Shown here: in pieces, positions 9,001 through 64,000 of the stretch
How the letters are laid out: every line of letters begins with the position of its first letter
How positions within the stretch are numbered: the stretch's first letter is position 1
Assembly (NCBI GenBank): GCA_002682825.1
Contig: NOKP01000003.1
Coordinates: 992,001 to 1,056,000 of the forward strand
DNA: 64,000 nt
From: Neonectria sp. B-13
Lineage: Eukaryota; Ascomycota; Sordariomycetes; Hypocreales; Nectriaceae
Direction of reading: 5' to 3'
The notes under the pieces: generated by a model
The model's input: the letters and a program-made list of their open reading frames with translations, nothing else
What the model was told of the DNA's origin: nothing
The model's database searches: none
Position numbers and translations under genes: made by a program

Positions 9001-12000
9001 GATGATACGAGCCACCGAAGGCGTCAAGTCAGCAAAGGTAGCTTGCAGAGTCTTAATCGCTTTGGCAACGTCGTCTCTGCGGTCCTTTTCAGCCGGGATG
9101 CAGATGCATCCTCCTGAGACGAGAGTGGTGAAAGTGTTGTGGATGGCGGCGTCGAACGCATACGATGCAAAGTCAAAGACTCTCGAGTCCTTGTAAATGC
9201 CCAGACGCTGTGCTTGATACTTTGCCCCAGAGGAAAAGTTGGTATGTGTCATTAGAGCTCCCTTTGGCGTCCCCGTGCTGCCTGACGTAAAGACGGCATA
9301 CATGGCCGTCGAAGGTGAGTACATCTCTCGCCCTGGTCTGCCATGCGGCTTGTACTTGTTGATCGAGTCTCCATCAACCTGGATGACTGTCTGGGACAAC
9401 CGTGCGCTGAGCGCCATGTTTGCCATGGAGGACAGAATCACGTCGGTATTAGTCTGCCGAACAATAATCTGCAGTCGCTGCTCCGGGAGAGACGGCTCAA
9501 GCAGGACAAAGGCGCCACCGGCCTTGAGGACGGCGAGCATGGCCACAGACGTCCACTTGGACTTTTCAAAGCACAGCGGCACGAGAACCTCGGGTTTGAT
9601 GCCGACGCTGACGAGCTGGTCTGCAAGCTGTTCGGCTAGCCGGTCGAACTCGGCATATGTAAACTCGCCGTCCCAGGCGCATACTGCCGGGGCGTTGGGC
9701 TGGCTTTGGACGCGGTCATAGACCAACTCGTCGACGCGTCGTTCAACAGGCTCAGGAACAGCACTGTTCCAAGCCCAGATTTGGGCTAGGTCTTGCGGTG
9801 GTATCATGTCAACCTCATCCAAGGCTTGATCAGGGTTGCATTGATCCAGTTGTTGCATGACATGTTCCAATGCATTGATAAGGGCGTCCACAACCCATGG
9901 CTCGACGGCCCTTGCGTCAAAGCCCGCGGTGACGGCTATGTGATCTTTATGAAGCTGCAGCTGAAGCACCAGCCCGTATGTGTTGATAGCCTCTGCTTGG
10001 TATCCATCTTGAAGCTTCCCGAGCATGCCCACAGCAGCGTCCTCCTGTGGGTGAACGACGAGCAAGGTCTGGAACATGCACGCTTGCTTGCTGTCTGCAG
10101 ATGCCTTGGCGATGCGCTGCAGACCCGTCTGCTCAAACGGAATCATATCTGCTGCTTGCTGCTGTACGGTTTCGAGATAGTCGGCAACCGTCTGACATCG
10201 CTCTAGCCTGACACGCACTGGCACAGTGGTAATAGTGGGAGCGGGCATCTCATCAATCCTGGGAACAGGAGCGTTTCTACCAGAGAGAGTTACACCAAAG
10301 ACGACGTCGTCAGAGTTGGTCATGGATCCAGCTACCAGGGCCCATGCTGCTCGGGCGAGAGTCGACGCCGTAATAGCACGGGACTGTTGAGGCAGTGAGA
10401 GTTGGCGCTGTTTGACGGTATCGGCTGCTGGCTGCTGGACAGAATGCGGTAGAGCCGGAAACGGTGTCGAGTTGCAATCAGCAAGATACTCCTGCCAGTA
10501 CTTAGACATGGCCTGCTCATCTTGCTCGCTGATGTACTTGACAAAGGCGTTAAAGGGGGGAGGACTGGTGATGACCTCGCCGCGATACGCTCGAGTTAAT
10601 GTGTCCATCATCAGACGCAGTGACCAGCCATCGTATACTGCGTGGTGAGCTGTCCAGATGAAGTACTTCTTCCCCTCTTCTTCCACGAGACCGTAGCGCG
10701 TAAGAGGTTGGCCCAGATTCATAGATAGCTTCTGGTCGTGTTGAGCGTACTCATTCAATGAAGTCGCCTCTTTCCATTGAATGTCTTTGTCTAGGACAAC
10801 CTGGAGCAGACCGAGAGAATGCTGCACAATGTGAGTGCGTAGAATCGGGATGGCCTTGACCATGTGCTGCCACGCATCGCGGAACCTCTGGATGTCAATG
10901 TCGATGGGTAGTTCTAGCGTAGATTGCAAAATGTAGTCTCCACTTTGTTTTGATGTCAACGCTACGAGACCCTCCTGAAGAGGTGTGCAGGGATAGGCAT
11001 CTTGTATCATAGCTGCTTCGAGGCCATACTCGGTCGATATATCTTGTATCACGGATGTGATGTCAACTTGACCGCCCAACAGAGCAAATGGCGAGATAGA
11101 CTCTGTAGAGCCGCGTATCAGCCGAACAGCTTGACTCGCCACCGTATCCAGCGTCGGATGGCGGAGAATATTTGCCACAGACAGCTCAGTGCCAAACTCA
11201 CGAGCCTCGCGCACAACTCTCATGGCCGCAATCGAGTCACCTCCAAGCCGGAAGAAACTGTCATCCAGGCCAATCTGTTCCGGCTCTATATCTAGAACCC
11301 GAGCCCAAATCTTTTGAATCTGCTGCTGCATGAACGACGTTGACGGCCTCTTGGGTCCAGCTGCCGTGCGTGCCTCGGCGAGGGAGCGGGCAGAGAAATT
11401 CGCGCCTATTTCTCGCAGCTTTGCCCGGTTCATCTTTCCGTTTCTCGTTACTGGGAGAGTCTTGATGGCGAAGAAGACAGCCGGGACCATGTAAGTCGGT
11501 AGCTGCTCGTTCAGCTTGGCCTCGACGCTTGCAGATATTGGCACTATCGTTGCATCTACTTCATCCAGACTCTCAATCTGGAGAAACGCAGCCAACGTCG
11601 GGCTCTCGTTCTTGCCCCGGGGCACAATTAGTTCCGCCACGACGTGCGAGGCTTTAGGCTCGCACTGCAAGACGCTGAGCTCGACCTCGCCCAGCTCGAC
11701 GCGCTGGCCTCGGATCTTGACCTGCGTGTCTTTGCGGCCCATGCAGACCAAGCACCCGTCGTGGAGAAGACGTCCGAGATCGCCGGTTTTATACAGCCGC
11801 CCGTGGCGACCAGGTCTCGTGGATGTACCGCGCAGCAGCCACTTGGGGTCCTCGATGAATGCCACGGACGTCTTTTCCGCATCGTGGAAGTAGCCTTGGC
11901 CGACGAGCGGGCCTTCGAGGAGGATCTCGCCAATACAGCCGAGAGGTAGCAAACGGTTGTGATTCTCGGGGTCAACGATCCAAGTCGATACTCCGTTGCC

Positions 12001-13647
12001 TATTCCCAGCCGCGTGGCTACGTCGAGGCTGGCCGCTGTGCCGTTCAGATGGCTGAGAGGCGTGCACTCGGCAGGCCCATATGCGGCAAGGACTTGAACT
12101 TTGCCCCACCAAGTCTCAACATCGTTGAGCCGTATCTCCTCGCCGACAAGGGTAATCGACTGTAGGTCAGGCACGTCTTTGGGAGAAAGCGTCCGGGCTA
12201 CCGAGGGGGTGGTGATGAGGACCGTAGCGCGAAAAGCCACCATGCTCTCAGCCAACTTATCACGCCTCTCCTGATCACTCGGCACGCAGAGACACGAGCC
12301 TGCAGTGAGAGCAGCAAAAACGTTGTAGACGGACACGTCGAACGCGTATGCGGAAAAGTCAAAGATGCGCGACTGCGAGGTGAAACCAAGGCTTTGTCTC
12401 TGGTGGTGCAAGGCCGACGCGAGGTTGCGATGCGAGATGACGACGCCCTTGGGCGTTCCAGTACTTCCTGATGTGAAGACGACGTACATAGTCGCTGATG
12501 GATCTACTGCATGTGGTTGTTTTCTTGATCGGTCGTCTAGGTTGGCAAAGAACCCAGCGTCAATGGCGATAGCCTGAGATCCCAAGTGGGCACTCAGAGC
12601 CGAGTTAGAAGCAGAGCACAGTGTAACGCTCGCCTTTGATTGTTGAGCAATAGAGCGAAGCCGTTTCTCGGGCAGGGTATAGTCCAAGTGCAGAAACGAC
12701 CCGCCGGTCTTGAGCACGCCGAGGATAGCGACGGTCGTCCAGACGGACTTTTTGAAACACAGCGGCACCAGCACCTCGGGCCCGATGCCGAGGCCGTCAA
12801 GATGCCCTGCCAGCCTCGTCGCAAGGTTGTCGAGCTCGCCGTACGTCAAGCTGCCGTCCCAGGCGTTCACGGCCGTTGCATTGGGCTGAGCCAGAGCAAC
12901 CTCCTGGACGATGTCGTGAGCGCACCTGTCGACGGCCTCTGGGACGGTGTTGTTCCACGCCCAGAGCTGGTCCAGGTCCTGTGGGACAAGCAGCTCGATA
13001 TTTGATACCGTCTGCTCGGGGCTGGCGAGCTGCAGCTGCTTCATGACGTAGGCGAGGCCCTTCAGGAGGGTTTGTACCGCCCACGGCTCGACGACTCGAG
13101 GGTCGAAACTAGCTGTCACCGTGGGTTTGTCCAGGTACAGCCGTATCTCGAGGACAAGAGCATGATCTTGACACAGGTGTTGTTGGGTTACATCGCTCTC
13201 ATGTGAGTGCATCACAAGCAGGGTTTGAAACGAACAAGCCCGTCGAGCCTCATCTGACAGCGTCTCGATATAACCCAGATCGCCAGCCTGCTCGACATGC
13301 ACCGACTCTTCCGTCTGCCGCTGCACCGTCTGAAGGTATTCCGAAACCTTCTGCTGACGGCCGAGCATTATACGCATCGGAACTCTTGTTCCTGTCGCTT
13401 CCGTGATGCCAAAAACAACATCGTCAGCGTTGCTCATGCTCCCGGCCACCAGAGCCCAGGCAGCACTAACCCAAGCGGATGTTTTGGTTCCATCTCGAGG
13501 CCGTGGTAGCCAGTGTTCGATGGTCGACTTGGCCGTGGGCTTGTCTATCGACGGCGGGAGGGAGGGAAAGGGCACGCCGTCGTACTCGGCCAGAACTGTG
13601 CGCCAGTACTCTGCCAGTTCCATCTTGTTTTCGTTTTCGGCAGGCAT
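1..13647 (-). CDS. Multimodular non-ribosomal peptide synthetase, 3' end cut by window edge
   Basis: An intronless reading frame of about 4,549 codons runs off the left edge. It builds a peptide on phosphopantetheine arms; the product is unknown. Domains, in gene order with rough plus-strand positions: C-terminal half of a condensation domain (13.65-13.0 kb); A1 (12.96-11.44); T1 (about 11.24, GGDSIAAM); C2 (11.0-9.8, HHAVYDGWS); A2 (9.78-8.2); T2 (about 8.03); C3 (7.87-6.6, HHIVSDGWS); A3 (6.5-3.72) with an inserted N-methyltransferase; T3 (about 3.56, GGDSLAAM); C4 (3.33-2.1, HHALYDGWS); A4 (2.1-0.5); T4 (about 0.35, GGDSIAAM); start of C5 (0.19-0). All T domains keep the serine and the A domains keep TSGSTG and YKTGDL/YRTGDF. 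No epimerase or terminal domain is visible. The ATG at 13,647 is the first in frame, but the frame stays open upstream to a possible splice acceptor, so the start is uncertain. The A-domain pockets do not match a code I can name with confidence. Confidence 0.93.
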   Translation of the reverse strand, partial: MPAENENKMELAEYWRTVLAEYDGVPFPSLPPSIDKPTAKSTIEHWLPRPRDGTKTSAWVSAAWALVAGSMSNADDVVFGITEATGTRVPMRIMLGRQQKVSEYLQTVQRQTEESVHVEQAGDLGYIETLSDEARRACSFQTLLVMHSHESDVTQQHLCQDHALVLEIRLYLDKPTVTASFDPRVVEPWAVQTLLKGLAYVMKQLQLASPEQTVSNIELLVPQDLDQLWAWNNTVPEAVDRCAHDIVQEVALAQPNATAVNAWDGSLTYGELDNLATRLAGHLDGLGIGPEVLVPLCFKKSVWTTVAILGVLKTGGSFLHLDYTLPEKRLRSIAQQSKASVTLCSASNSALSAHLGSQAIAIDAGFFANLDDRSRKQPHAVDPSATMYVVFTSGSTGTPKGVVISHRNLASALHHQRQSLGFTSQSRIFDFSAYAFDVSVYNVFAALTAGSCLCVPSDQERRDKLAESMVAFRATVLITTPSVARTLSPKDVPDLQSITLVGEEIRLNDVETWWGKVQVLAAYGPAECTPLSHLNGTAASLDVATRLGIGNGVSTWIVDPENHNRLLPLGCIGEILLEGPLVGQGYFHDAEKTSVAFIEDPKWLLRGTSTRPGRHGRLYKTGDLGRLLHDGCLVCMGRKDTQVKIRGQRVELGEVELSVLQCEPKASHVVAELIVPRGKNESPTLAAFLQIESLDEVDATIVPISASVEAKLNEQLPTYMVPAVFFAIKTLPVTRNGKMNRAKLREIGANFSARSLAEARTAAGPKRPSTSFMQQQIQKIWARVLDIEPEQIGLDDSFFRLGGDSIAAMRVVREAREFGTELSVANILRHPTLDTVASQAVRLIRGSTESISPFALLGGQVDITSVIQDISTEYGLEAAMIQDAYPCTPLQEGLVALTSKQSGDYILQSTLELPIDIDIQRFRDAWQHMVKAIPILRTHIVQHSLGLLQVVLDKDIQWKEATSLNEYAQHDQKLSMNLGQPLTRYGLVEEEGKKYFIWTAHHAVYDGWSLRLMMDTLTRAYRGEVITSPPPFNAFVKYISEQDEQAMSKYWQEYLADCNSTPFPALPHSVQQPAADTVKQRQLSLPQQSRAITASTLARAAWALVAGSMTNSDDVVFGVTLSGRNAPVPRIDEMPAPTITTVPVRVRLERCQTVADYLETVQQQAADMIPFEQTGLQRIAKASADSKQACMFQTLLVVHPQEDAAVGMLGKLQDGYQAEAINTYGLVLQLQLHKDHIAVTAGFDARAVEPWVVDALINALEHVMQQLDQCNPDQALDEVDMIPPQDLAQIWAWNSAVPEPVERRVDELVYDRVQSQPNAPAVCAWDGEFTYAEFDRLAEQLADQLVSVGIKPEVLVPLCFEKSKWTSVAMLAVLKAGGAFVLLEPSLPEQRLQIIVRQTNTDVILSSMANMALSARLSQTVIQVDGDSINKYKPHGRPGREMYSPSTAMYAVFTSGSTGTPKGALMTHTNFSSGAKYQAQRLGIYKDSRVFDFASYAFDAAIHNTFTTLVSGGCICIPAEKDRRDDVAKAIKTLQATFADLTPSVARIIDPAAVPSLKTLMLGGEAVSADDVARWIKQTRVVNAYGPAECTVVSTINDTISSPEDGVHIGRGAGLVTWVVDPQNHDLLLAPGCTGELLLEGPLVGRGYIDEPEKTAQAFVEDPPWLLRGAAGRQGRRGRMYKTGDLVRYNENGSLTFMGRKDAQVKIRGQRVELGEVEHQVQKCMADVVKVAAEVITPQGEASSPTLVVFLQMSHKNTETNGSHAATAMILPISVNAEDKLAAHLPTYMIPTAFFIMTTMPMTATGKIHRKQLRDIGSAFSAQQLAEIQTKARGPKREPATLQERVMQGIWARVLGIDGTSIGLDDSFFQLGGDSIAAMKVVGEARKAGFELSVADIFRWRRLQHIASQQQSVQEDLGAITVAGTSAPYEQSFSQGRLWFLDQLYSGFSWYIVPCALRLRGPLQLSALNTALQAVERRHETLRTVFSSQDGLNLQHILPFQKNDLVVVDMPLGDEDGLMRALEQDQITPFDLRKEAGWRVKLYRMDSQSHMLSIVMHHIVSDGWSVDVLRKDLASFYSMAVRGQDPLSKAHPLPIQFKDFAHWQHQPAQAEEHQRQLDYWVEQLQTSRPSEMLCDKPRPAVSSGKAGEEFPMIEGLVYEKLQRYCKDRSVTPFIVLLAAFRATHFRLTGADDGTIGTANANRSRAEVKDMIGFFVNLQCLRIRIEEETFDELVQQVHSVAIDSFANQDVPFEDIVSKLQKDRDISRHPLVQIVFAVHAQMELNRFTLKGVEAESVAVAESTRFDLELHFFQEKDAYRGHVLFSTELYDRETITNMLSVFHRVLERGLDEPTTKIASLPLLTDTDYAKLNDMGLIKVPKSAYPEHSSIIDVFRKRVTAHPNRLAVKDPLGDLTYAQLERQSDCLARSLVAKGMPTGSLVGVLSARSCETIVAILGVMKADLAYLPLDVRIPVGRLDTVLSCIEGPKLVLLGLQAKIPDTQLQHVEFVRIADMMKDKANKVSLPSPTSNSLAYVMFTSGSTGQPKGVMIDHHAVVRRVREGPMIDLLPSAPIIAHISNIAFDAATLEIYAALFNGGTLICVDTMIVLDSKALGQVFHREKVQAALFTPALLKQYLAESSDTIRQLEVLWVGGDRADPRDMVKALKLVKSKVINAYGPTENTIASTVYCLNEDDKYTNGVPIGKAVRNSGAYIMDAQMRLVPLGVVGELIVTGDGLARGYLDPKRNVGRFVTVTIDGKAIRAYRTGDFVRYRPVDGQLEFFGRMDGQVKIRGQRVELGEVEHVLRSNKFVRDAVAILKHGDERDAQIISFVTIKDVAEPRLGKADAHEVTDHMEVWEDAFDEDLYVGIDAVQPDTVGRDFIRWTSMYDGSDMDKVEMNEWLDDTIETILNGGPSGNILEVGTGSGMILFNLTHGMHSYIGLEPAQKAVSFVINAAKTIPGLAAKVRMHKGTAVDISRLSKSASASPDLAVINSVAQYFPSQDYLFKAIEDLFELGSMRTVFCGDMRSYALYRQFRTTKALHVLGMNASKDDLRRKMAEIEQSELELLVDPAFFTALPIRLPHLVDHVEIIPKRMRATNELSCYRYAAVIHAKAKEQTVYDVDGDWIDFTVDQLDRKSLVQVLKNSSPSAIVAVSNIPYSKTITERHVIESLDRTEEEGLNGDWIRLASEKARLCPSLSALDLVEIAQEAGCRVEISCARQHVQRGGLDAVFHHRDPTQGENRVQFRFPVDPQDRPVHTYSSQPLRQQLRQRVREELQETVRAQLPSYTIPKAIHILDKIPVNQNGKVDRNVLAASVQTRTAFRGETRQPTTDEQRTMQKIWGQVLKMNLTSIGIDDNFFQLGGDSLAAMRVVGQARKLGLELAVAHVFRHPRLSDLAGQGTQLSQQALEHILPFALLRDSKKVDTVVGQICSHYQLPSGAIQDMFPCTPLQEGLLSLTSKRPGDYIMQDILQLSPDVQLNDFRNAWEEIAQVMPILRTRIVQHNDLGLMQVVLHDKFKWHKATSLEAYTEADKQQPMGLGQPLARYGLVEDNTGARYFVLTLHHALYDGWSLPILTQAVNQVYHGDVLEQGPQFQAFIKYITDQDKDKTATYWRNAHPDSEAVAFPTCPPSIEEPIADQVLEHHLPCPQEQSSGITTAIIIRAAWALVVKQMSNSNQVLFGVTVNGRNAPVVGIETVAAPTIATVPVRVNLDAEQTVLTYLDAVNQQATEMIPFEQTGLHRIARFSPNTRKACKFQTLLVVQPQDMSVPEDTLGVWKDGNRRQQFNTYALMLEFELGQQDILARASYDSRIIQPSVVEKLLHRLEYVLHQLSNAAPETSLGDINLLMPQDLAQVWEWNKHLPAQSQKCVHEIFQDQARLQPTAMAISSWDGELSYGKLNQLANSLAGQLVRAGAVADMIIPLCFEKSMWNTVAMLGVLKAGAAFVLLDSSLPAHRLRSIVRQARAKLIVSSVSNQDLSLQLCPQVMAVSTEYFTDIKQVTIDPVVKPNLDSLSYIVFTSGSTGTPKGASLSHGNAASAMMHQAAAMGLTNNSRVYDFSSYAFDAAVLNAFMALAAGACLCVPNDDERKSNLAASIASSKADFTFFTPSVVQLLSPEQIPDVKTMILGGEMLHEKDVSRWWDCINILIAYGPSECTPFTSFSDPLRPGDALTLGKGVGTLTWIVDAEDTDTLLPPGCVGELLLEGPLVGRGYLNEPTTTAAVFIENPTWLLQGAPGQPGRRGRLYKTGDLVRYNPDGSLSFVGRKDAQVKIRGQRVELGEVEYRIQGCLPEATQVVAEVIVPQGDNSSPTLVAFLQIESHAANCADTAAVKIIPLTPEIEDKLAEHLPSYMVPTAFFSIQQLPSIISGKMDRKALREIGSSFTMEEFAEAQAGRGPKRQPTTHAERLLRAIWAQVLNVDAATIGLDDSFFQLGGDSIAAMKLAAETQKAGIQLTAVDVFRHRRLHQMASHQASTANGRVQDIKSIQQTGPVEQSFAQGRLWFLDQLYPGQTWYLMPFATRIRGPIQLGALHAALQAVEKRHETLRTVFSSRDG
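3990..5110 (-). other. N-methyltransferase domain inside NRPS adenylation domain A3
   Basis: The sequence between the A8-type motif QVKIRGQRVELGEVE (near 5,270) and the A10-type motif NGKVDR (near 3,740) is much longer than in modules 1, 2 and 4. It contains the SAM-binding motif I ILEVGTGSGMILFNL (about 4,910-4,860), preceded by the WEDAFDEDLY segment that usually opens NRPS N-methyltransferases. In this family the domain methylates the amide nitrogen of the residue loaded by the same module, so residue 3 should be N-methylated. A3 also differs from A1, A2 and A4 in its core motifs (FDAATLE, NAYGPTENT), which suggests a separate origin. Confidence 0.9.
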
Positions 13648-13693
13648 CGCTGGGGTATTTCTCAATGTTTCTTGTTGAAAGAGAGTGTAGGCG

Positions 13694-42813: not shown

Positions 42814-43228
42814 TTAATTAGGAGGTTGAGGTCTATGTAGTAGGAAACCGTAATGGATGAACAAATAAATGCAATCGTATAGCTAGCTGTTGAGCAATCT
42901 TCTCAGTATGCTACCGTTCCGTCTGAAGCTCGTCGAGCATGAGGTGATGACGTTTCGGCCACATGCAAAGATGGGTCGAGAAGCCTAATAACAAGCAGGG
43001 ATATTTAGGTGCTCCTCGTGAAGGCGCGCCATGCGCTGAGGGGCGATAATCCCGCACCAAGGGTCCCTTGACACAGCGATCCGCATCCTTCGGGGACGTC
43101 CCGCAGCAAGGATCTCAATGATACACGGCAGGGATGCATGCCAGGCCTCTTCATTTCGTTAAGATGCCTACGGAGCTCCCCGCAGCGTCAATCAGGAATT
43201 TCCCCCGCTACCTCGACAACCATCCAAG
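42814..43228. other. Intergenic, nothing recognised
   Basis: This is the promoter side of the FAD monooxygenase; no motif stands out. Confidence 0.4.
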
Positions 43229-44669
43229 ATGGCGACCCAAACCGCAGCCTCTGCAGAGCAGCCCGTCCTCATCATCGGCGCTGGCATCAGCGGACTAGTT
43301 CTTGCACAGCGACTTCGTCGGGAGGGAATCCCCTATCGAGTGTTTGAGCGTGATGCTGACCTTGCAACTCGTGGCCTTGGGTGGGGTCTGACTTTGCACT
43401 GGTCGCTCCCAGCATTGCGAGCGATGCTACCTGACAACCTCATCCAGCACCTGCCAGATACTTACGTTGACCGTGCCGCTGTCGACGCAGGGGCCTCCTC
43501 AACATTTCCGTTCTTCGATTTGACGACGGGCGAGATGACGGCTGCAACGCCCAAGGCCCCTCAGTCTGAGCGTATCAGGGTAACGCGAGAACGGCTGAGA
43601 CAGCTGCTGGCGACGGAGATTGACATTGAGGTGCGTGCCGTTATCTATGAAAGTGCATTTTGCCTCTCGCTGACACTTGGCCGTACATGAAGTGGGAGAA
43701 GCCTCTCCGAGACCTCAAACTAAACTCCGACTCAGTAACGGCCACGTTCGAAGACGGCTCTTCGGTCGATGGACGCCTCCTGGTAGCCTGTGATGGCGCT
43801 CAATCTCGAGTCCGACGTTTAATGTTCGCAGAAAGATGGGAAACGTACGAAATCCCGGTTCGTGTGTTAGGGGTAAAGCTGCATTTATCCCCTGCACAAG
43901 CGAAACCAATCCAGGACCTAGATCCTTTCTTCTTGCAGGGGACTGCTTCTAAAAACAACTCTTTCGCTTACATCAGTCGTAAGTGCCATGCACCCCCCAG
44001 GAGGTCAGGGTATTAATGACACTTGTGACAGTACTTGATGCCCCTGGAAACAATGCAGAGAGTTCGGAGCAATACACCTACCAGCTTTGCGTGTCTTGGC
44101 CATACCGTAAAGGTTTTCTTGGAGAGTCGGCTCCAATTGAAATCCCTGGTTCGAATGCGGAGAAACTTGAGTTGATTCGAACTCTGGCGGCAACCTGGGC
44201 GGAGCCTTTCCGAACACTTGCCCTCAGTATTCCGGAGAATGAGATCATAAAGGGCTTCGCTCCGCAAGATTTTCCTCCGCCACCCGGCCTTCATTCGACT
44301 GGCCAGGCCGTCTTGATGGGGGATGCATTTCATGCAATGGCAATGTGTAAGCTGGCCTATACAAGCACTTACTTTGAACTACGAGCAAGACTAATATGCC
44401 TAGACCGAGGGGAGGGTGCTAATCATGCGATTGTCGATGTTCTTGATTTTTCTGAGCACGTGGTGCCGCACTTGAAGCATCTCAATGACTCTATAGCATT
44501 GAGGGCAGCCCTGGTTGAGTATGAGGACGTCGTTGCCGATAGGACCCGTCCTGGAGTACTGGCATCTCGACAAGCATGCATGGACGCACATGATTGGCCC
44601 CAGATTACCTCAACAAGCCCCTTGCTAACGAAGAGAGAAATGAACACCAAGTTCGGCGAGACTGCGTAG
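43229..44669 (+). CDS. FAD-dependent monooxygenase (salicylate/zeaxanthin-epoxidase-like)
   Basis: Four exons (43,229-43,630; 43,693-43,978; 44,032-44,346; 44,404-44,669) encode 422 residues. The introns of 62, 53 and 57 nt are in phase. The FAD-binding GxGxxG motif is in LIIGAGISGLVLAQRL at residues 14-29. The mid DG motif is VACDGAQSRVRR, and the second FAD motif GDAFHAM is followed by YRGEGANHAI across the last intron. It should hydroxylate or epoxidise a small molecule with NAD(P)H and oxygen. There is no clear N-terminal targeting signal. Neighbours are a receptor and an amino-acid permease, so the context does not show the substrate. Confidence 0.9.
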
Positions 44670-53799: not shown

Positions 53800-54560
53800 T
53801 AGGGCATATTTATCTCTAGATAATTCATTAATAATGACTTTATTATCTTTATTGTCTAACCTAGTCTCTAATTACTTAATAAGAGCTTTAAGTAGTATCT
53901 TCTTCTCTATAATAAAGCTAATATTATTAATCTTAGTAGCTCTATTATTAAGGAATAAATAGTAGCTAAATATAGCTAGATATATTATTTGAATAATACT
54001 AACTATTATATAATTAAACTTAAAGCTATTAAGACTATAGATTCTAGCTTAATAAAGCTATTTTTTATACTTAATAGACTTAATCTTTCTATCTAAAAAG
54101 TAATAATATTCTATTTTATATTTTTTTATAGCTCTATTTCTTACTATTAAATTATAAGATATAATAGATAATAGTAAAAGTAGAATATATTATAATTATA
54201 TTATATTATATTATAGTATATTAAGAAAGAAAAAAAAAGACTAATTAGACTTATTAGCTTAATAAAAGATAATTAAGTTATTTATATATACTATAGTTTA
54301 GGATAAGCTTTTTATAAATTAGATATTAAGGTTAGAAAGAGAAACTTAAATAGATTATAAAAATAGGCTTAAGGTATAATATTAATATAAACTATATTAC
54401 TAGGAAAGCTTACTATATTTAAGTTATTAGGATTAATAGTATTAAGCATAGTATCTTACTATATTAACTATTGTATATTATCTACTGTATTATCTTGATC
54501 TATTAGATAATATTAACTAAGGCTAAAATTACTATAAATACTATTATATAAATCGCTCGA
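53800..54560. repeat. Extremely AT-rich block, likely RIP-mutated repeat
   Basis: About 760 bp consist almost wholly of A and T, with very few C and G and many TA-rich words and short homopolymers. All frames are full of stops. Its edges are sharp: normal composition resumes at about 54,550 (GCTCGAGCCCC). Such isochore-like islands in ascomycetes usually mark transposons destroyed by repeat-induced point mutation. The original element cannot be recognised. Confidence 0.7.
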
Positions 54561-54703: not shown

Positions 54704-56103
54704 TTAGCTCTTAGGTCTCTTTAATCCCACCAATATATAAATCAGACATGCTGCCACCATAGACAGTCCTCCAAATAGTTGTGCATACAAGTAATCCCCA
54801 TCGTGGATAGTAACTAACCACCCCCCAATTGGCGGACCAGTAAAACTTGAAATACTAACCACACCTAGAATCATGCCGACTCTAGTTCCAACACGAGTTG
54901 GATCCGTGCTCAAGTCGCCCACTGCCGCTGGGAATAGACTCTGAGTGGCATTTGCAGCAATACCATAGATAACAGCCCATCCAAAAAGACCCTCAGTAGA
55001 AGAGACACCATTCCAGGCGAGCAGGAGAATACCACTGATACCTACAGCTGGTATTAAGGTATTGATGATACCAAAGTACTTATCTGCAAGCAGTGAAGGA
55101 ATTGTTCGTCCTAGGATGCCCACGCCGTTCATAACAATAATAACAAGTAGGGATTCCGTTAAGGAGAAGTCCAACACAGTGCGTCCGTATATGCCAACCT
55201 TGAATAGTCAGTATTAGATAACTTCCACTTATTAATTGAAATAAGGAATCAAGCGAAACACTCACATAGAAATAAGCAAAATACAGCCCCCAAAGTGACA
55301 GGAACGACCCTACCGCAAAAAGGGTATACCATAGCTCCGCAAAGGCGCTTGTGTCGAAGAGTGAGCGTGGTTTCCGTATAGGGATACGAGTCTTTGTAAA
55401 AGTCAAGATCATAAGAGCATTAAAGGTAATAACAAACCCCATAATAATTACTGTCCATCTGAAGCCGTATCGCGACATACTAGTATATGCAATAGTGGGA
55501 AATATCATACCCCCTGTTGCAGCTCCACAGGTTGCCAGCGAGAAAGCAAATGCCCTATTCCGCTTAAAGTATGTGGGAAGGATGGACACGATGGGGGCGA
55601 AGAGGAATCCATGCCCTAGACCGCTGCACACACCTTGCGCGACGAACAGTTGCCAATACTTGGTAGAGAATGCCGTCGCAAAAACTCCAAGAACCTGGAG
55701 TGTGCAACCGATGAGCAGAGAATACCGGAAGTAACCCAGGTCAACAGTTCGACCTGAGAAGATACCGACAAAGTTCAGTAGGAACATCTGCATTGAACCG
55801 ATCCATGCCACGTCCGAAGCTGACCGTTCAAGTTGCTCCACATAGTACTGTTGGAAGAAGCCGAAGCTTTTCAATGCTGAACGTTAGACATGTCGTCTGT
55901 CCGGATGTGGGAAAGAGAGTAGTGGTGTTGACGTACGACGTGATGTAGCCCCAGCAATTGAAGACGACCAAATGGCCCATGGCAACCTGAGTCCAGGCCA
56001 CGAGACCCCCGTCGGGTATATCATCGTCATAGACTTGTGGAGGACTGTGATGTTCTAACGATTCGACAGGAGCGGTTGCTTGGCTCACGGTGGCCTCGCG
56101 CAT
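54704..56103 (-). CDS. MFS transporter, fungal monocarboxylate-porter type
   Basis: Three exons (56,103-55,937; 55,866-55,266; 55,198-54,704) encode 420 residues. The introns of 70 and 67 nt have GTACGT and GTGAGT donors, all in phase. The start has the typical DIPDGGLVAWTQVAMGHLVV, then NCWGYITSFGFFQQYY and WIGSMQMFLLNFVG. LATCGAATGGMIFP and GVGILGRTIPSLLADKYFG follow. Twelve helices are expected. Family members move monocarboxylates, riboflavin or secondary metabolites, and some are exporters within biosynthetic clusters. It is divergent from the amidase, and its 3' end abuts the AT-rich block. Confidence 0.9.
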
Positions 56104-56656
56104 TGTGATAATTGAAGTTTCCGTAAACTCTTTACAAGAAGTGAGCGAAATGGTCAAACTACTACCACTCTACTAGAACGCTTGGGATGATGAGCTACTC
56201 AGGAGGCTATAAGAGAGAAAGACTCTGTGAAGTCGTCCGGTCCTGGGGATGACGAGATTCACCATCCCTATCACAGACCGTATTCGGCATCGACGGCTAA
56301 GCTTACGCGGATGTCGCCTGATATTAAGTTCCGGTGTTACACGGCTCCGACTTGGCGGTTATCGGCTTACAAACTAGGTAGTACCGTAAAGTCTTGATAA
56401 ATTGAGAAGGTCTAGCGCCGGATTAATTAACTACGGTCTTGGCAACTTGACCAGACTTAACTATGAGTCCGATCGAACTTCCATCCAATCGGCTCAGGTA
56501 CAAGGTAGCCTGACGTTGCGCTAGACCTTCTCAATTTATTGAAACTATATAGTAATACATTTGCTCCACCAACGCTGATGGCGAAAGATGCGGGCGAGGT
56601 TCCACTGCAGACAGAGACTCTTCTCCGAGCAACTCATATCCTTGAAATTCTCAGCC
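56104..56656. promoter_or_regulatory. Divergent promoter shared by transporter and amidase
   Basis: This 553-bp region lies between two divergent start codons and contains the inverted-repeat element at 56,397-56,539. Co-regulation of the two genes is inferred, not shown. Confidence 0.5.
56397..56539. mobile_element. 143-bp MITE-like element with perfect 22-bp terminal inverted repeats
   Basis: ATAAATTGAGAAGGTCTAGC at 56,397 and its exact complement ending at 56,539 frame a 143-bp unit. Pairing holds for 22 bp and continues imperfectly outside. There is no coding capacity. It sits inside a divergent promoter. Confidence 0.75.
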
Positions 56657-58741
56657 ATGTTCCTACGGTACTTGATTCTGAGCACAATCTTCGCAGCCAG
56701 TAGCCCTGTTGCTGCTGCTGCTGCTGCTGCTTCCTTGCGCCTATTCACCGGTGCCACCATCCAACTAGGAAATGTCTCATTCTGGATCCCCCCCGAGCCC
56801 GTCAAGAAGCTCCCTCGGAAAGTCGTCATCGCAAGCATGTCTGATGACTCCGCATCCTCGGGCGGCTACGTGCCAATCAGTGTGGTCCATCTGGCAGCCG
56901 AAACCGATACGACGGAAGCACTTGAACGGCAGTTTTCTCGGTACCAGTCTTCAGATGATGTTTGGACTGAGGACTTTTCATATTGTAATTGAGACCTCTA
57001 CACTTGCCCGCAGTCTCTTCTTGCGCGTTACCTAACAGTTATTAGTCGTCTACATACAGAACACCACCGTTGGCAACGAAGAGCAGATTCCAGATATTTC
57101 CGTCCATGGTTGGGGAATTCGGACCATTTTCCATCAACGTATCAACAGCACGGAAGACAAAGTTCCCGAGGGCCCTTACTTTCTCTCGTTTCAGGGCAAC
57201 CTCCACCGTGCATATCGGCTCTTCCCCGACTTCCAACAAACTTTCACCGAGTCCCTGTATGCTCAACCAGACGGGAACCACTCCGTCCTCCCCGCAAACG
57301 TCGCCGGCCAGAGTCTCGCCATAGCCGTGCCTTCCAGGCTCTACTACGAAAGGACACCCGACAAGCCACTGGCCGGCGTACGCCTTGGGGTCAAGGACAT
57401 ATACGACGTCGCCGGCGTCAAGACTGGCAACGGTAACCGAGCCTGGTACAACGTCTATCCATGTGCCAATGTGACAGCAACCGCTGTTCGGAGGCTCATC
57501 GACGCGGGTGCAGTCGTAGTGGGGAAGCAGAAGACGGCCCAGTTCGCCAACGGAGAGTATGCGACGTCGGACTGGGTCGACTACCACTCGCCCTTTAACC
57601 CGCGCGGAGACGGATACCAGGATCCTAGCTTCTCTTCCGCAGGTGGTGGAGCGGCTGTTGCGTCCTATTCGTGGTTGGACCTTGCGCTTGGTTCGGATAC
57701 AGGGGGGAGTATCCGCGGTCCCGCTCGCGTCCACGGTCTGTATGGTCTGCGGCCATCGCATGGGTCTGTGCCTCTTGATCATGTCTTGCCCCTGGCTCCG
57801 GAGTTCGATACCGCCGGACTTATTGCGAGAAGTGCCTTGCTTCTGCGGGACGCATCTGATGTCTTGTACGGCTCAGTCGGAGATCTGTCAGCTCGATACC
57901 CCCGGCACTTGTTCGTTGACGGGATTCCTCAAGGGCTAAGTCCAGAATCCAGTACCGCAGTGGAGCACTTTCTTGGTGAATTGAAGAGTTTCCTCGGCCT
58001 CAGATCCATTACGTCGTTCAATATGACGGGGTTCTGGCAAAGCTCTCGGCCTCCGCAAACGCCGGAGAACCCTGCAAGTATGCTGAACACGACCTATGCG
58101 ACATTGATCAGCCAACGGCAGGCCAAGCTTGTACGAGACCCTTTCTATGCCCATTATGCACGATTGCATGCCGGCAGGCAACCATTCGTCAATCCGGTCC
58201 CGTTGGCCCGTTGGGCTTACGGAGATGGTCTCCCGCAGCATGCGTTGGCTGAAGGCCTGAGAAATAAGACCATCTTCAAGAACTGGCTTCATGGCCAAGT
58301 TCTGAGATCAGACCCGGAAACATGCTCCTCTTCGATCCTAGCATACATTACGCCGCCAATGACTCAGTACAGGAATTCCTACCGGAGCCCGCCGGCCATG
58401 CCATTCGGCTTTGCAAACTCGTATTGGAGCGTGATGGGAGAGACCCCCGACCTTGTGGTTCCGAGTAAGCAATGCCTCACAATAGCTCTTCCTTTCCCTT
58501 GGCTCTTTTTACCTTGTTATGTTTAAGCAGCTAACGATACGGCAATCCAGTCGGAGAAGTACCATACCACTCTTCCGTAACCAATCATACAGAGCAACTA
58601 CCCATAACAGTTAATCTCTTAGTCGCCAGGGGTTGTGACTCAATGCTCTTGGGGCTTGTGGTCGAATTGACCAAGAAGGGCCTTCTCAAAACATCGGCTA
58701 CCGGGGCGAGCAGCGTAAGCGGTGGAGAGATCTTACTGTGA
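56657..58741 (+). CDS. Secreted amidase-signature family hydrolase
   Basis: Three exons (56,657-56,984; 57,046-58,464; 58,551-58,741) encode 645 residues. The introns of 61 and 86 nt have CCTAAC and GCTAAC branch sites. A signal peptide ([15 protein letters not shown], then an alanine run) is clear. The amidase core has the catalytic lysine in [11 protein letters not shown] and the Ser-cisSer pair in [12 protein letters not shown], with [12 protein letters not shown] just before it, as expected for the Ser-Ser-Lys triad. N-glycosylation sites are frequent. The enzyme should hydrolyse an amide outside the cell or in the secretory path. A role in handling a formamide or amide product of the neighbouring isocyanide synthases is conjecture. 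Confidence 0.9.
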
Positions 58742-59299
58742 ATCTAATTAGGCATCTTGGCTGCGTATTGTGAGGCGTTAGCAGCTGTCGAGTATGAATC
58801 CTTCCACAATAGAGTCGAGTCTCTTCGTAAGGTCGACAGGCTCAACTTCCTCGCCTGTACCTAGCTACTTCTCGCTTTGTCTATCCAAGGATTCTGAGAC
58901 CTCCATCGTTTAAAGTGTTCATCCTTGAAGCGTGTAGCATCCGCCGTGGGCCATGGCCCTCGAAGAGGGGTTATGTCCAGCTGATACCACCTTGCAGATG
59001 GTGACACAATACAGCCAATTGCTGATCTTTCCTATCCGGTGATCCTGCCAGGCCGGCACACTCAGTGGCCCTTTGCCAGTCTGTCTAGCCTTCCAGGACG
59101 GCCTTTTGGAAATTTCAGTCCACAGTACACCAGTGGTGCTTCCACCCTTTTTTTGAGCCTAGTAAGGGTAGGAATATTCGGGAAGTTCAGCCGTAGAGTC
59201 AAAAGCCATAAAATCCACCGAATGTTCGGCGTCTTCCGAACTTCTCTTCATCATCTCCTTTACACACTGGCCAAACACTACCCCCCCACTTTAACAAAA
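58742..59299. other. Intergenic, promoter side of isocyanide synthase 1
   Basis: No gene is recognised; the last 40 bp before the start are pyrimidine-rich, as is common in fungal promoters. Confidence 0.4.
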
Positions 59300-60582
59300 A
59301 TGCCCGTTCTATCAGAGTCAGAAATTCAGGAGATACTCTCTATTCTGCGGCGTTTCTCCCGGTATGGAGACCAGCCTGGATCTGATCACCCGCCAGCATA
59401 CGAGCCCCTTGTTGCTACGAAAATTCGAAAATTCCTCGCCGCTGAAAAGCCGCTGTTGTTGCTCCTACCAGCATTTCCTTGGAAGAACCCGAACACAGAC
59501 AAGGTCCTAAGTGAAAATCCTGACTTTGGTGAGGAGTTAGGCCTGGCTAGGCTGAACCATCTTTGCGAGGAGCTGGCCAAGGTCCACCCCTACGGCGCAC
59601 AGCTGACCATGGTCGCGGATGGCCCTGTATACAATGGTAAGGACTCACTAGATAGAGGACGGGTATGGTATGATCAATTCTGATGGCCGAAAACACAGAT
59701 CTCCTCGGCATTCCCGATGCAACCTTCTACGACTACGGGGTTCAGCTGCGCCAGATGGCCAAGGAGAAAGGCTTTTCGCACATTACGTTTGCCCGTCTCT
59801 TGGACGTGCTCGGGCTTGGCGACGGGGATGCCCTGTCCAAAGCAGACTATCTAGCAACGGCTGACAGTTGCCGACGCGAGATGGAGGCACGGTTCCTTGA
59901 CTCAAACTTTGATCTCAAGCGTCAGATTGAGTTGCACCCGGATACTGCGTTGACGTATCAGAAGTATGTCAAGTCGGCTAAGGAGGACCTTCGATGGGGG
60001 CCGGAAGTCGACCCTACAATCAAGACGGACCCCGAGAAATATGAAGCGGAGGCACAAAGAGTAGCGGAGCGCATGACCGAAAGATTGCTGGTAAGTAGGA
60101 CAAGGGTTCACGTTTCTACTGTATTAGCTGATGACACTGTTTGACAGGCCTACGAAGGAGCCCTGGAAGCAAAGTTTCCTGAAGCCATTAGACTTTCCAT
60201 TCACAGATCAACAAGAAAGTCCAAAATCTCGATTCCATTGATCCCGCAACCCGGCGGCTTCGGCCTTACACCCTGGCACTCCTGCATCTTGGTCACGGCA
60301 AATGGATTGTACCGGACCGGGCCGTCGGAGGGATTCCGTGATGCCGAGAGGTATGAACTGATCGCGAAAGACGGAAAACCTTACTTCTTTCGGGAGAAGC
60401 ACCCTGACTTTAATTGGCCCTCGTATGTACACATTAGCCATAGCTACGGGGGGCATCTCATTGTAGTCAATGTATCTGCGGATGAAAGGGAACAGCGCCT
60501 AGATGAGGACTCAAACCTTCAGCTGGCTAATCTCGCCTTGCGATTTAGGGAACTTGAGGTTCGCGGATTCAAGCTTGAATGA
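59300..60582 (+). CDS. Isocyanide synthase, DIT1/PvcA family (copy 1)
   Basis: Three exons (59,300-59,636; 59,699-60,090; 60,148-60,582) encode 387 residues, with introns of 62 and 57 nt. The first domain has the conserved block [20 protein letters not shown], then [19 protein letters not shown] and a DGPVYN motif at the first splice site. Later parts include [19 protein letters not shown] and [13 protein letters not shown]. In this family (PvcA, IsnA, yeast Dit1, Aspergillus ICS proteins) the enzyme turns an amino acid's amino group into an isocyanide, with ribulose-5-phosphate giving the carbon in studied cases. The substrate amino acid cannot be told here. There is no fused oxygenase domain. 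Confidence 0.92.
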
Positions 60583-61318
60583 TGTTCTGGTATTAGAGAG
60601 GAGTTATGTTTCCCTTAAATTGAGACTGTAAACAAGAATATCTCTGCAACCTCTCTGTGCTCGGCTTTGCTGACCTCCTCTGTCGCCTCGTTTTCACTGC
60701 GCTCTCCTGACCACTTATTGATTTCCCCGCTTACCAAGCTCGGATTCAGCATGAAATCGCGTTATTAAATGCATATATAGAGTTTCCCCTCTGCACCGCC
60801 ACATGTAGGTGGTACCCAGGGAGAGAAATAGATCAAATGAATGCTACCCATCCATCTTCCACCTTCGCCACCTCTTACTTACCTTCCTTTTTAGTCCGTT
60901 GCTCTATACCGACGTGATACACGTACTGCGTAGTAGTCTATGTCGATGAGCTGGTCTGTTTGGCATCAGGGCTATGTTGATGGAGTCGGTGATGTGCACC
61001 CATGTCTAACACCCTGGTCTTACCAGGATACCAAATTCACAATGTCAAAGATACCTCGGAATCCTTACTCCCCAAGGCCGGAAGTCCACCGAATAGAGTT
61101 GATCAAGTTATTTCAGGCATAGTCTTGCATGACTCGGGGCTGCTCAACTGTAGACCTCATGCATTATTGGCGTCCTGGCAAGCCGATTTTCTTTCCAGTC
61201 AGTTCTTGATATATAAGCCTCAACTCTTGTCCTCTGTAGACCTTTCATCATAACAAGCCGTTCCCATCTACACGCTCAGACTATTTCAGCAACCCAAAGC
61301 CATCAAGAAACCACCAAA
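60583..61318. promoter_or_regulatory. Intergenic/promoter region between the two isocyanide synthases
   Basis: No gene is seen. A TATATAAG box lies at 61,210-61,217. Confidence 0.5.
61210..61217 (+). promoter_or_regulatory. TATA box of isocyanide synthase 2
   Basis: TATATAAG lies about 105 bp upstream of the ATG at 61,319, followed by a pyrimidine-rich stretch. Confidence 0.6.
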
Positions 61319-62788
61319 ATGTCTGCCCTGAAGTTTCCACAGATTTCAACATCCCCATCCGCTCAGATCTATACCAGGTCACAGGGACGGGACATGCTTT
61401 CCTGGTTCATTGCAGAGCAACCTCACAGCAAGCAGCCAGCCGTCAATCTCCGAGGCCTCCACGATGAGCACGGCAAAGGAACGGAAGAACCAAAACCAAG
61501 CAAAAAGCCCGGGGTAAAAGACGGGCAGAGCCCGGGAATTGACACTACTGTAACATCGATTATGGACGTGCTCGAAAGTTTCAGCCTCCAGCAGCAGGGC
61601 AACAACATATTCCTTGGCAGAGAAGTATTTTCACCCAGGGTCAGGCGCCATGTCGCCGCAGGACGCAAGATTCCGATGGTTCTCCCGGCTTTCCCGGCAA
61701 AGAGCATCAATCGTGTCGAAAAGGTTTTAGGAACGAGGCCTGACTTGGGTGAAGAACTAGCCTTGGATCGTCTCAACGATCTCTGCTCAGGAATCCAGAA
61801 GGTTTACACACCTGGTGCCATGGTTCTTATTGCAACTGATGGTTCATGCTATAATGGTATGATGGGCCTCACGAAGTATAATAACTTTCATTACTGAGAC
61901 TTGCTTTAAGACCTCACTGGAGTCACCGACAATGATCTATTTGAATACGGAGTAATCCTGCGCCAGATGGTATCTGACAAAGGCTATCGATGCATCCACT
62001 TTGTGCGCATTATGAACCTTCTTGGGCTGTACTCAGACCCTGAGATAAGCAGGGAAAGGTTCATCGGTTTATTGGAACCTAGTCGGAACGAACTGATGAG
62101 CCGTTATTCCGACCCCAATTTTGACGCAACGGCCTGCATCAGGAACGATCCCGACTACAAAATGACATACGACGGCTACGCCAAGTTTTTGAAGAAAGAC
62201 TTGGCATTCGGTGTGGTTAGAGAATCAGTTTCGAGTGGAAAGAAGTTCAAAGCCAAGGTCCACGAGACGGCAAAGGCCATGATCGCCCGAGGTGTTGTAA
62301 GCATACAATTATATCAACCTTGCGAACCCAGAGAATACTAATCATGATTCCTACTTCTCAAGGCATTCGCGGAAGTGATTCGCGAGAAATACCCCGAGCA
62401 TGTGCGACTTTCTATCCACCCCTCGACTGGACTGACCAAGATATCAATGCCCTTGATTCCCCAGCCGGATACCTTCTCCATGACTCCGTGGCATTGTGCG
62501 GTAGCCGTCGACATCTATGGGAACTTCAAAACATTGCACGTTGCTGCTTTGAATAAGTCACATGAACTAGTCCATAGATGTGGTCATCCATACTTCTTCC
62601 GCGAGCGTTCTAGGCTGTGGGAGTGGGATACGGAAGTGGAGTTTGAGCATCTTTACGGAGGTGGACTAGTGGTGCGTAACGCTGCTGGGCTTAAACAGGT
62701 TAAAAAACCTTTGTCCGATGCGGATAAAGTGAAGTTGGCTTCTCTTGCCATAGTGCAGGGTAGACTCATCCTGGAAGGGTTTGATTGA
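61319..62788 (+). CDS. Isocyanide synthase, DIT1/PvcA family (copy 2)
   Basis: Three exons (61,319-61,856; 61,911-62,296; 62,363-62,788) encode 449 residues, with introns of 54 and 66 nt at the same two protein positions and phases as in copy 1. Matching blocks are PMVLPAFPAKSINRVEKVLG, PDLGEELALDRLNDLCSGI, DGSCYNG, LIPQPDTFSMTPWHCAVAV and PYFFRERSRLWEW. The N-terminus is about 65 residues longer than in copy 1, mostly polar and lysine/proline-rich, with no clear targeting signal. The shared intron positions indicate tandem duplication, but the sequences have diverged strongly, so the two may accept different amino acids. Confidence 0.92.
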
Positions 62789-63220
62789 GGATGCCGTACA
62801 TGCAGTTCATTCAAGGGGTCCATATTTCAATAGCTAGCTCATCTTTACTCAACGGTGCTCTTAACCTACATCCCTATTGTCTCTCCCACTTTCGCTGAAA
62901 GTGGTTTTTGTTTCATCATTCTGGGCACATGAATTCCGGGTTGTATTAATCTTAAAGACATATGTATCCGCATGGAAAGGATTTATCTGCTTCATCTTTC
63001 GTGTTCTAGAATACCAGCCGTAGCAACACCGGGGAAAGTATCAACTGAAGATCAGTCATCGCGTTGGACTGGATTAGCATTAGAGTGGATTTGGATGGAC
63101 TGGACTGGACTGAATCGAGAGGTCTGGAGCCTTCTGGTAAGGGTGCACTCTAACACACCTACACCATCAAGTCCTGCATAGACATAGTAGGGCAAGCAAG
63201 CCCACGCCGGTGAGGGTTGT
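62789..63220. other. 3' flank, nothing recognised
   Basis: No gene or family motif is seen. Confidence 0.35.
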
Positions 63221-63308
63221 GTTAGATTATACTGTCAGGCCAAAAACATAGTACACCACTATAATTGGTACCTGCTTGCGTATCTAAGTCTATATACCGC
63301 AATCTAAC
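63221..63308 (+). mobile_element. 88-bp MITE-like element, copy 1
   Basis: The unit starts GTTAGATT and ends AATCTAAC, which are inverted repeats. It has the same length as the copy at 63,439-63,526 and differs from it at nine sites, all transitions. Confidence 0.8.
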
Positions 63309-63438
63309 ACACACCCCCAGCGTGAACGGCTTCCAGAGGCTTTACGCTGGTTTATTAGGTCATTGGGAGATTATTAGCTGCTCTTTCTAACGGTAGTTAC
63401 AGGCAACAGAGTTTTCTCCACCTCCGAGACTCTTAATT

Positions 63439-63526
63439 GTCAGATTACACTATCAGGCTAAAAATATAGTGCACCACTATAATTGGTACCTGCTTGCGTA
63501 TCTAAGTCCATATACTGCAATCTGAC
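63439..63526 (+). mobile_element. 88-bp MITE-like element, copy 2
   Basis: The unit starts GTCAGATT and ends AATCTGAC. The inner 35 bp around ACTATAATTGGTACCTGC are identical to copy 1. There is no coding capacity. Confidence 0.8.
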
Positions 63527-64000
63527 AGGTTGTTAGATCTCGTGACTGCGTAAGTGGGATCTAACGGTCTAAGTTGGGTGCCTCTGGCACCGGGAAATGT
63601 ATGATCAAATGATGCTAATTTAGGCTGATTGAATTGATGATAATTACGACCTTAATAACGTCGTTATGACTAATGGATTGACCGGCGAGGGATTTCCCTA
63701 ATCTACAGTCTCTGAGACCCCTGCTTCCTCAGTCATCCGACGGAACCGGACCCTTCCGTCTAACAAGGGTGCTCCTCACGTGTTGCGGCCGAGACCGAGA
63801 TCTGCTTAAAAAGGTGCTGATCAATCAACCTTTCCCCTCTTTGCTTCTTGAATCTACAGATACCTACACAATAGCAAACTGCAATCTTGGCCTTGTCCCT
63901 TATTACCTCCCAGCGTCGCGGCAAACCAATAAGATGATGCGTTGTAATCTCGCCAATGTATTATTTCCCAAAAGACCTACGGCAGCAGTGTTGCCTCAAT
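63527..64000. other. Right end of window, nothing recognised
   Basis: No supported gene is visible before the window edge. Confidence 0.35.

Follow-up and report, generated by a model that had tools for sequence, protein, structure and literature searches.

Isocyanide synthases (ICS) combine the amine of an amino acid with one carbon of ribulose-5-phosphate (PMC7949033), and several kinds of fungal gene cluster built around them have been described. Clusters of gene cluster family (GCF) 1 each carry two ICS backbones, which fall into two clades derived from one ancestral duplication; these ICS are monodomain proteins, and the family has a patchy but broad distribution (Nickles 2023, PMC10153163). 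Two ICS genes also share one locus in the ICS4G cluster icsA/icsB of Aspergillus fumigatus, where IcsB is an ICS-dioxygenase fusion (Lim 2018, PMC5974471). Here we describe a locus in a 64,000-nucleotide stretch of DNA from the fungus Neonectria sp. B-13 (the window hereafter), in which two single-domain DIT1/PvcA enzymes, ICS1 and ICS2, are encoded beside an amidase. We consider this locus likely to be a small isocyanide (isonitrile) biosynthetic cluster, with a conserved core of amidase, ICS1 and ICS2 that is probably flanked by an exporter of the major facilitator superfamily (MFS) and a DJ-1/PfpI self-protection enzyme.

The locus belongs to a known kind of two-synthase isocyanide cluster. 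It shares with GCF 1 the paired backbones from two clades, the monodomain ICS and the patchy but broad distribution, and it is likely a member of that family, the match being on those features that could be tested. It shares with icsA/icsB the presence of two ICS genes in one locus, but both ICS of the window are single-domain proteins. A first-pass annotation of the window had proposed an isocyanide cluster and had called its two-synthase arrangement unfamiliar; the cluster stands, now with an amidase core that recurs in other fungi, while the unfamiliarity falls away in view of GCF 1 and icsA/icsB. The other described systems differ more. The xanthocillin (xan) cluster has the same ICS chemistry and a hydratase homologue (XanA), comparable to the hydratase-like gene of this locus, but it also includes an ICS-dioxygenase fusion and the cytochrome P450 XanG, neither of which occurs in the window cluster (Lim 2018, PMC5974471). 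The crm backbone joins an ICS to a part like a nonribosomal peptide synthetase (NRPS), and the window cluster has none. The dit system (DIT1/DIT2) is likewise built on a single-domain DIT1/PvcA protein, but no P450 was found near the window pair among the 92 of 295 P450 candidates scored.

Gene structure and the relatives of the encoded proteins mark the window (C50:768024-832023, minus strand, of a 60.9-Mb assembly) as fungal. Positions 54704-62788 encode four unbroken proteins in hand-built models with GT-AG introns, and a further gene crosses the window end into the adjoining DNA (C50:758024-768023, minus strand). The features are as follows.

54704..56103, minus strand: MFS carrier, 420 aa; exons 56103-55937, 55866-55266 and 55198-54704; PF07690 (MFS_1), 104 bits.
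56104..56656, no strand: divergent intergenic region between the MFS and amidase genes, 553 bp, holding an inverted repeat that resembles a miniature inverted-repeat transposable element (MITE).
56657..58741, plus strand: amidase-signature enzyme, 645 aa; exons 56657-56984, 57046-58464 and 58551-58741; PF01425, 124 bits.
59300..60582, plus strand: ICS1, single-domain DIT1/PvcA enzyme, isocyanide-synthase-like, 387 aa; exons 59300-59636, 59699-60090 and 60148-60582.
61319..62788, plus strand: ICS2, single-domain DIT1/PvcA enzyme with an N-terminal extension of about 100 residues, 449 aa; exons 61319-61856, 61911-62296 and 62363-62788.
63934..64000 in the window, plus strand: first part of a DJ-1/PfpI gene for an isocyanide-hydratase-like protein of 257 aa; exon 1 ends at window-equivalent 64054 and exon 2 spans 64133-64785.

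The amidase, ICS1 and ICS2 genes thus all lie on the plus strand, and the MFS gene diverges from the amidase on the minus strand. The four genes within 54704-62788 are real, far beyond chance. In the amidase model, the acceptor of exon 3 at 58550 was picked since a 15-letter protein segment is thereby restored. What the first-pass annotation had said of the arrangement is borne out: two intact DIT1/PvcA genes stand head to tail in the order given, with unbroken frames and strong Pfam matches, next to an amidase with a complete Ser-Ser-Lys triad and a divergent MFS gene. Its extent of 54704..62788 fits these four genes, but the end at 62788 does not hold, with the DJ-1/PfpI gene running from 63934 past the window end.

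The assignment of the two synthases is firm at the level of family. Both carry DIT1_PvcA (PF05141) as their sole Pfam family, with 279 bits for ICS1 (E 4.5e-83, model positions 1-271 of 273) and 295 bits for ICS2 (E 6.3e-88, positions 1-272 of 273) against a cut-off of 26.4. Further support comes from solved structures: PvcA (3e59) was matched at E 5.1e-28 by ICS1 and 7.3e-30 by ICS2, and both proteins also match 9dh4/9dhm, which are named isonitrile synthase family proteins. ICS1 and ICS2 are 36% identical over 381 residues, and both of their introns lie at matching positions and phases; by eye, four other ICS genes of this genome have introns at matching places too. In an alignment with 42 relatives, all 25 columns that are invariant in 42/42 (P57, P60, K62, D107, D113, R258, H262, P285 and W286 among them) are matched by both window proteins, and the invariant residues of a second alignment of 38 rows are likewise kept in both.

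To place the pair among its relatives, a 77-row quick tree and a 48-row tree were built from hand-chosen rows: the two window proteins, paralogues from the same genome (five and three, respectively), part of the 228 proteins obtained in the ICS1 and ICS2 searches, and P0239 and P0240 from the amidase search (P0239 in the 48-row tree). The tandem ICS of the window fall into two clades, with support in the 48-row tree of 100/100 for the ICS1 clade and 96/91 for the ICS2 clade, linked by a weak branch that is considered below. Eight genera appear in both clades of the 77-row tree (Fusarium, Dactylonectria, Colletotrichum, Lecanicillium, Boeremia, Stachybotrys, Pestalotiopsis and Penicillium). Talaromyces and Diaporthe appear in the ICS1 clade only, and Alternaria, Bipolaris, Hyaloscypha, Neofusicoccum and Macrophomina in the ICS2 clade only. 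Given two supported clades that share eight genera, ICS1 and ICS2 are paralogues of long standing that have often stayed together.

We then asked how often the core recurs elsewhere. Relatives were sought among 5.8 billion proteins, yielding 133 for ICS1, 157 for ICS2 and 3809 for the amidase. Each list comprises the best 120; in the ICS1 and amidase searches, the 8000 candidates sharing most words were scored. Among the matches listed, the nearest relatives come from Nectriaceae (Dactylonectria and Fusarium): ICS1 and the amidase are closest to Dactylonectria macrodidyma (87% and 88%, respectively), and ICS2 to Fusarium nematophilum (79%). A linkage table was assembled from 110 hand-picked rows of these 3 x 120, located on 81 contigs; it excludes general fungal amidases (~45-49% identity), ICS that belong to other clades and the majority of unnamed metagenome rows. 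Gene order was inferred from locus tags, merged gene models and equal size of the longest contig, the last being indirect evidence of linkage that is loose on chromosome-sized contigs (Penicillium and some others).

At least two of the three core genes stand as separate rows on 28 of the 81 contigs, 10 of which are shorter than 150 kb. ICS1 and ICS2 occur together on 17/81 contigs, merged models being counted as ICS1, and the amidase occurs with an ICS on 12/81. All three genes were found on four contigs, from Boeremia exigua, F. albosuccineum, F. nematophilum and Colletotrichum sojae (the last three with merged models), and a further 24 contigs carry two of the three. F. decemcellulare, Lecanicillium saksenae, Pestalotiopsis fici and F. 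nematophilum show consecutive locus tags (NM208_g5974/g5975, NLG97_g5215/g5216, PFICI_08075/08076 and ACJ41O_011914/011915, respectively), whereas Colletotrichum gloeosporioides, C. camelliae, Alternaria panax and A. dauci have a single tag between the amidase and ICS2. In addition, an amidase and an ICS domain are merged in 13 gene models, and for 10 of these the contig has no other row. Both Pfam domains are present in 13/13 of these models. Inspection of four (P0237-P0240) showed an ICS part of the ICS1 type, and three others were found by the ICS1 search (P0014, P0048 and P0069). We read them as annotation merges, because 558 bp separate the amidase and ICS1 genes in the window; a real fusion is possible in those species. 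Outside the tabulated set, Aphanocladium album has an ICS2 (P0151) and a 49% identical amidase (P0277) on one contig, 29 locus tags apart. For the core, the conserved neighbourhood in relatives whose absence would have refuted the first-pass annotation is therefore present.

The triad of the amidase, Lys226-Ser307-Ser331, is complete and is kept in 28/28 aligned amidases, the window's included. By eye, its N-terminus resembles a signal peptide, as do those of most of its 27 relatives, P0233 and P0293 excepted. The cluster amidases group in a single clade (100/100) to which none of nine general fungal amidases belongs, and their cis-serine lies within a common FSSAGxGA loop. Among the 19 rows labelled as linked in this tree, linkage was shown for 14, by a shared contig, by a merged model or as the window row itself, and the label of P0231, P0232, P0241, P0245 and P0246 comes from similarity. 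ClbL (8es6, 'colibactin biosynthesis amidase') has the same family and triad (E 6.5e-09) and offers an example from a natural-product pathway; the likeness to ClbL and to other amidase-signature enzymes is limited to the signature region, and the cluster amidases have a fungal clade of their own. The word 'amidase' is absent from the main texts of Nickles 2023 (PMC10153163) and Lim 2018 (PMC5974471), and literature searches combining isocyanide synthase with amidase returned nothing relevant. As far as these searches reach, the two-synthase arrangement is already known and its association with an amidase has not been discussed.

On either side of the core lie the two probable accessory genes. 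The MFS carrier is probably a cluster member, on the basis of adjacency. The DJ-1/PfpI gene begins 1.1 kb past ICS2, its first exon starting at 63934 inside the window and its stop lying at window-equivalent 64785. Its 208-aa main exon matches PF01965 with 51.9 bits, and aligns with the isonitrile hydratase InhA at E 3.3e-19, including a VCTG motif whose Cys we take to be the catalytic one. All NCBIfam matches of the protein are below cut-off. Genes of this type occupy about eight distinct loci in the 60.9-Mb assembly (11 candidates scored), and by our own estimate an unrelated one would fall within ~2 kb of the cluster by chance with a probability of the order of one in a thousand or less. 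ThiJ/PfpI isocyanide-hydratase homologues are present in ICS clusters of A. fumigatus (Lim 2018, PMC5974471), and across fungal ICS clusters MFS genes are reported in ~60% and hydratases in 21.1% (Nickles 2023, PMC10153163). Because a chance neighbour would be rare and hydratases are known in fungal ICS clusters, we include the DJ-1/PfpI gene as a probable member. Elsewhere in the genome (C32:1350206-1355024), a further pair of MFS and DJ-1/PfpI relatives is found no more than ~3 kb apart, on a contig with no DIT1/PvcA match.

As the first-pass annotation had noted, no P450 or 2-oxoglutarate (2OG) oxygenase gene was found nearby, and this holds as far as tested: TauD had no match on contig C50 (41/41 candidates scored), and the nearest listed P450 match on that contig is ~105 kb away (scored as stated above). 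Oxidative decarboxylation by such enzymes is therefore not provided locally. Under the reading as an isocyanide cluster, each ICS would join the amine of an amino acid to the ribulose-5-phosphate carbon to give an alpha-isocyano acid, whose carboxylate would probably be kept, because neither ICS is fused to a 2OG oxygenase and neither such an enzyme nor a P450 was found in the vicinity. The hydratase would convert intracellular isocyanide to an N-formyl compound, as has been proposed for XanA (Lim 2018, PMC5974471), and the MFS carrier would export the product. The amidase, apparently secreted, might cut or form an amide, or remove a formyl group, outside the cell. In this reading ICS1 and ICS2 would do different jobs.

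Six ICS loci were found in the genome, on contigs C50 (the window locus), C1, C80, C44, C53 and C72. With 10 kb seen per locus, only C50 combines two ICS with an amidase, no amidase match being found near the other five. On C1 and C80 the ICS is accompanied by TauD matches and a FAD_binding_3 neighbour. Downstream of the C44 ICS, and on its strand, come AMP-binding, PP-binding and transferase domains, which is the make-up of CrmA. On C53 (227000-236999), a single-domain ICS diverges from NRPS-like AMP-binding, PP-binding and acyltransferase-like domains, which belong to a separate gene since they lie on the opposite strand. Separate ICS and NRPS-like genes have been described for GCF 8 (Nickles 2023, PMC10153163), and this one genome holds both the split form (C53) and a possibly joined form (C44). 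The C72 locus combines DIT1 with a P450, and is a candidate for the dit job.

Several observations weigh against the reading of the window locus as an isocyanide cluster with a conserved core, and they bear on different parts of it. The first concern the coherence of the core. A single gene only was found on 43/81 tabulated contigs. In Dactylonectria, the amidase and ICS1 share one contig and the amidase and ICS2 another, with the third gene not among the matches listed in either case. Two related loci are apparent in D. macrodidyma (P0229/P0001 and P0230/P0122); it seems that each has lost a different synthase or that the gene models are incomplete. Likewise, the matches listed included neither an ICS1 from Bipolaris or Alternaria nor an amidase from Penicillium. 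Such gaps may in part stem from annotation or from the extent of the lists, and in part reflect real loss. Comparison with 50 first-order resamples put the number of 6-9-base words common to the four upstream regions at chance level (words in all four regions: one of length 7 against 0.54 expected, none of length 8 against 0.02 expected). For comparison, cluster motifs have been reported around 87.5% of ICS genes (Nickles 2023, PMC10153163). No transcription factor was noticed beside the cluster, where no systematic search for one was made. A Mac1-like copper element has a single occurrence, in the MFS/amidase region only, and we claim no copper link.

A second group of observations concerns the pair of synthases. 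The branch joining the ICS1 and ICS2 clades is weak in the 48-row tree (78/74), with a Shimodaira-Hasegawa-like approximate likelihood ratio test (SH-aLRT) value of 91 in the 77-row quick tree. In the ICS1 clade, S63 is replaced by Asn in 19/23 rows and F205 by Ser, Arg or Leu in 21/23, where the 29/29 outside rows and 25/25 ICS2 rows have Ser and Phe, respectively. These changes at otherwise fixed residues suggest that ICS1 may not be a standard synthase. The ICS2 clade has its own signature, with Cys in 25/25 rows at Val177, a position held by Val in 26/29 outside rows and 23/23 ICS1 rows. Such clade-specific changes would be consistent with a difference in substrate, with an obligate pair, or with loss of activity in one partner. 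One ICS could be the enzyme and the other a non-catalytic partner or regulator in a hetero-oligomer, as the clade-wide replacements in ICS1, the co-occurrence of both paralogues on 17/81 contigs and the eight genera represented in both clades would allow. We regard this as unlikely: the family-invariant residues are kept in both proteins, and Bipolaris and Alternaria show amidase and ICS2 without an ICS1 among the best 120 of 133 ICS1 relatives, so ICS2 may work alone.

The flanking genes raise a third set of doubts. The best solved match of the DJ-1/PfpI main exon is the ThiJ protein 3mgk (E 2.5e-36), ahead of InhA, and no listed hydratase relative lies within 10 kb of any of the genome's five other ICS loci. 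The MFS and DJ-1/PfpI genes could be unrelated neighbours, leaving amidase-ICS1-ICS2 as the functional unit. This is possible though doubtful. An AT-rich block beyond the MFS gene (17% GC at 54000-54500) and short repeats between ICS2 and the DJ-1/PfpI gene speak for it, but the MFS gene and the amidase share their 553-bp divergent intergenic region, and MFS and hydratase genes are common companions of ICS clusters (Nickles 2023, PMC10153163).

Sequence features of these borders can be described further. The AT-rich block that borders the cluster spans 53860-54560 and by eye looks like repeat-induced point mutation. Between ICS2 and the DJ-1/PfpI gene are two 90-bp copies (63220-63309 and 63438-63527) that are 90% identical and have inverted ends; in this genome the pair occurs only here and in the mirror copy of the contig described below. 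The arms of the MITE-like inverted repeat in the MFS/amidase region (56378-56418 and 56518-56558) are 41 nt long and 83% complementary, with 99 nt between them, and a 154-bp piece was present once in the genome, not counting the mirror copy.

Finally, DIT1 homologues can serve the chemistry of N-formyl-tyrosine in the spore wall, and in yeast an isocyanide intermediate is described as not established (Lim 2018, PMC5974471). Accordingly, ICS1 and ICS2 might be DIT1-like enzymes making N-formyl amino acids for a polymer of the cell or spore wall, where the secreted amidase would trim formyl or amide groups. The path from yeast Dit1 to N-formyl-tyrosine (PMC5974471), the secreted appearance of the amidase and the lack of a 2OG oxygenase match on contig C50 would all suit this explanation. 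We nevertheless hold it to be quite improbable. Yeast Dit1 works with the P450 Dit2 (PMC5974471), and none was found near the window pair among the 92 of 295 candidates scored; the separate DIT1-P450 locus on C72 is a candidate for that task, and both window ICS group away from the C72 row, which has a very long branch. The hydratase-like gene also fits a free isocyanide better. An isocyanide cluster with an amidase-ICS1-ICS2 core remains our preferred reading of the locus.

Other features of the surrounding DNA deserve mention. About 10 kb from the cluster, a gene at 43163-44666 weakly matches FAD_binding_3 (25.7 bits against a cut-off of 22), and the last piece of this gene matched no Pfam family. 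On the minus strand at window positions 1-13665, an open frame of at least 4555 aa runs off the window and reads by eye as a multimodular NRPS in which an N-methyltransferase segment appears to be embedded; some 40 kb separate it from the ICS cluster. Contigs C50 (centre near 912,012), C72, C27, C38, C105, C114 and others are mirrored, carrying the same genes twice on opposite strands with equal scores. The DNA was 100% identical in the two pieces tested, and C72 is apparently palindromic from end to end. This mirroring is probably an assembly artefact, and gene counts and the 60.9-Mb size are therefore inflated.

Isocyanide clusters are a large and mostly uncharacterised class of fungal natural-product genes. 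The locus described here contributes a compact, recurring core, and its amidase points to a tailoring step that is not mentioned in the main texts of Nickles 2023 or Lim 2018 or in the results of the literature searches. At its most speculative, ICS1 and ICS2 would make two different isocyano amino acids, or be active solely in a hetero-oligomer, with their products joined or unmasked outside the cell by the secreted amidase; we think this very unlikely. If true, the cluster could yield an amide-linked bis-isocyanide serving as a copper chelator or antibiotic by an oxygenase-free route, a type of isocyanide pathway not found described in the literature searched. Both synthase clades keep distinct residue signatures, and why the cluster keeps two synthases therefore becomes directly testable. 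The value of this locus lies in a well-bounded recurring core together with that testable question: the reason for two synthases, and the job of the amidase.

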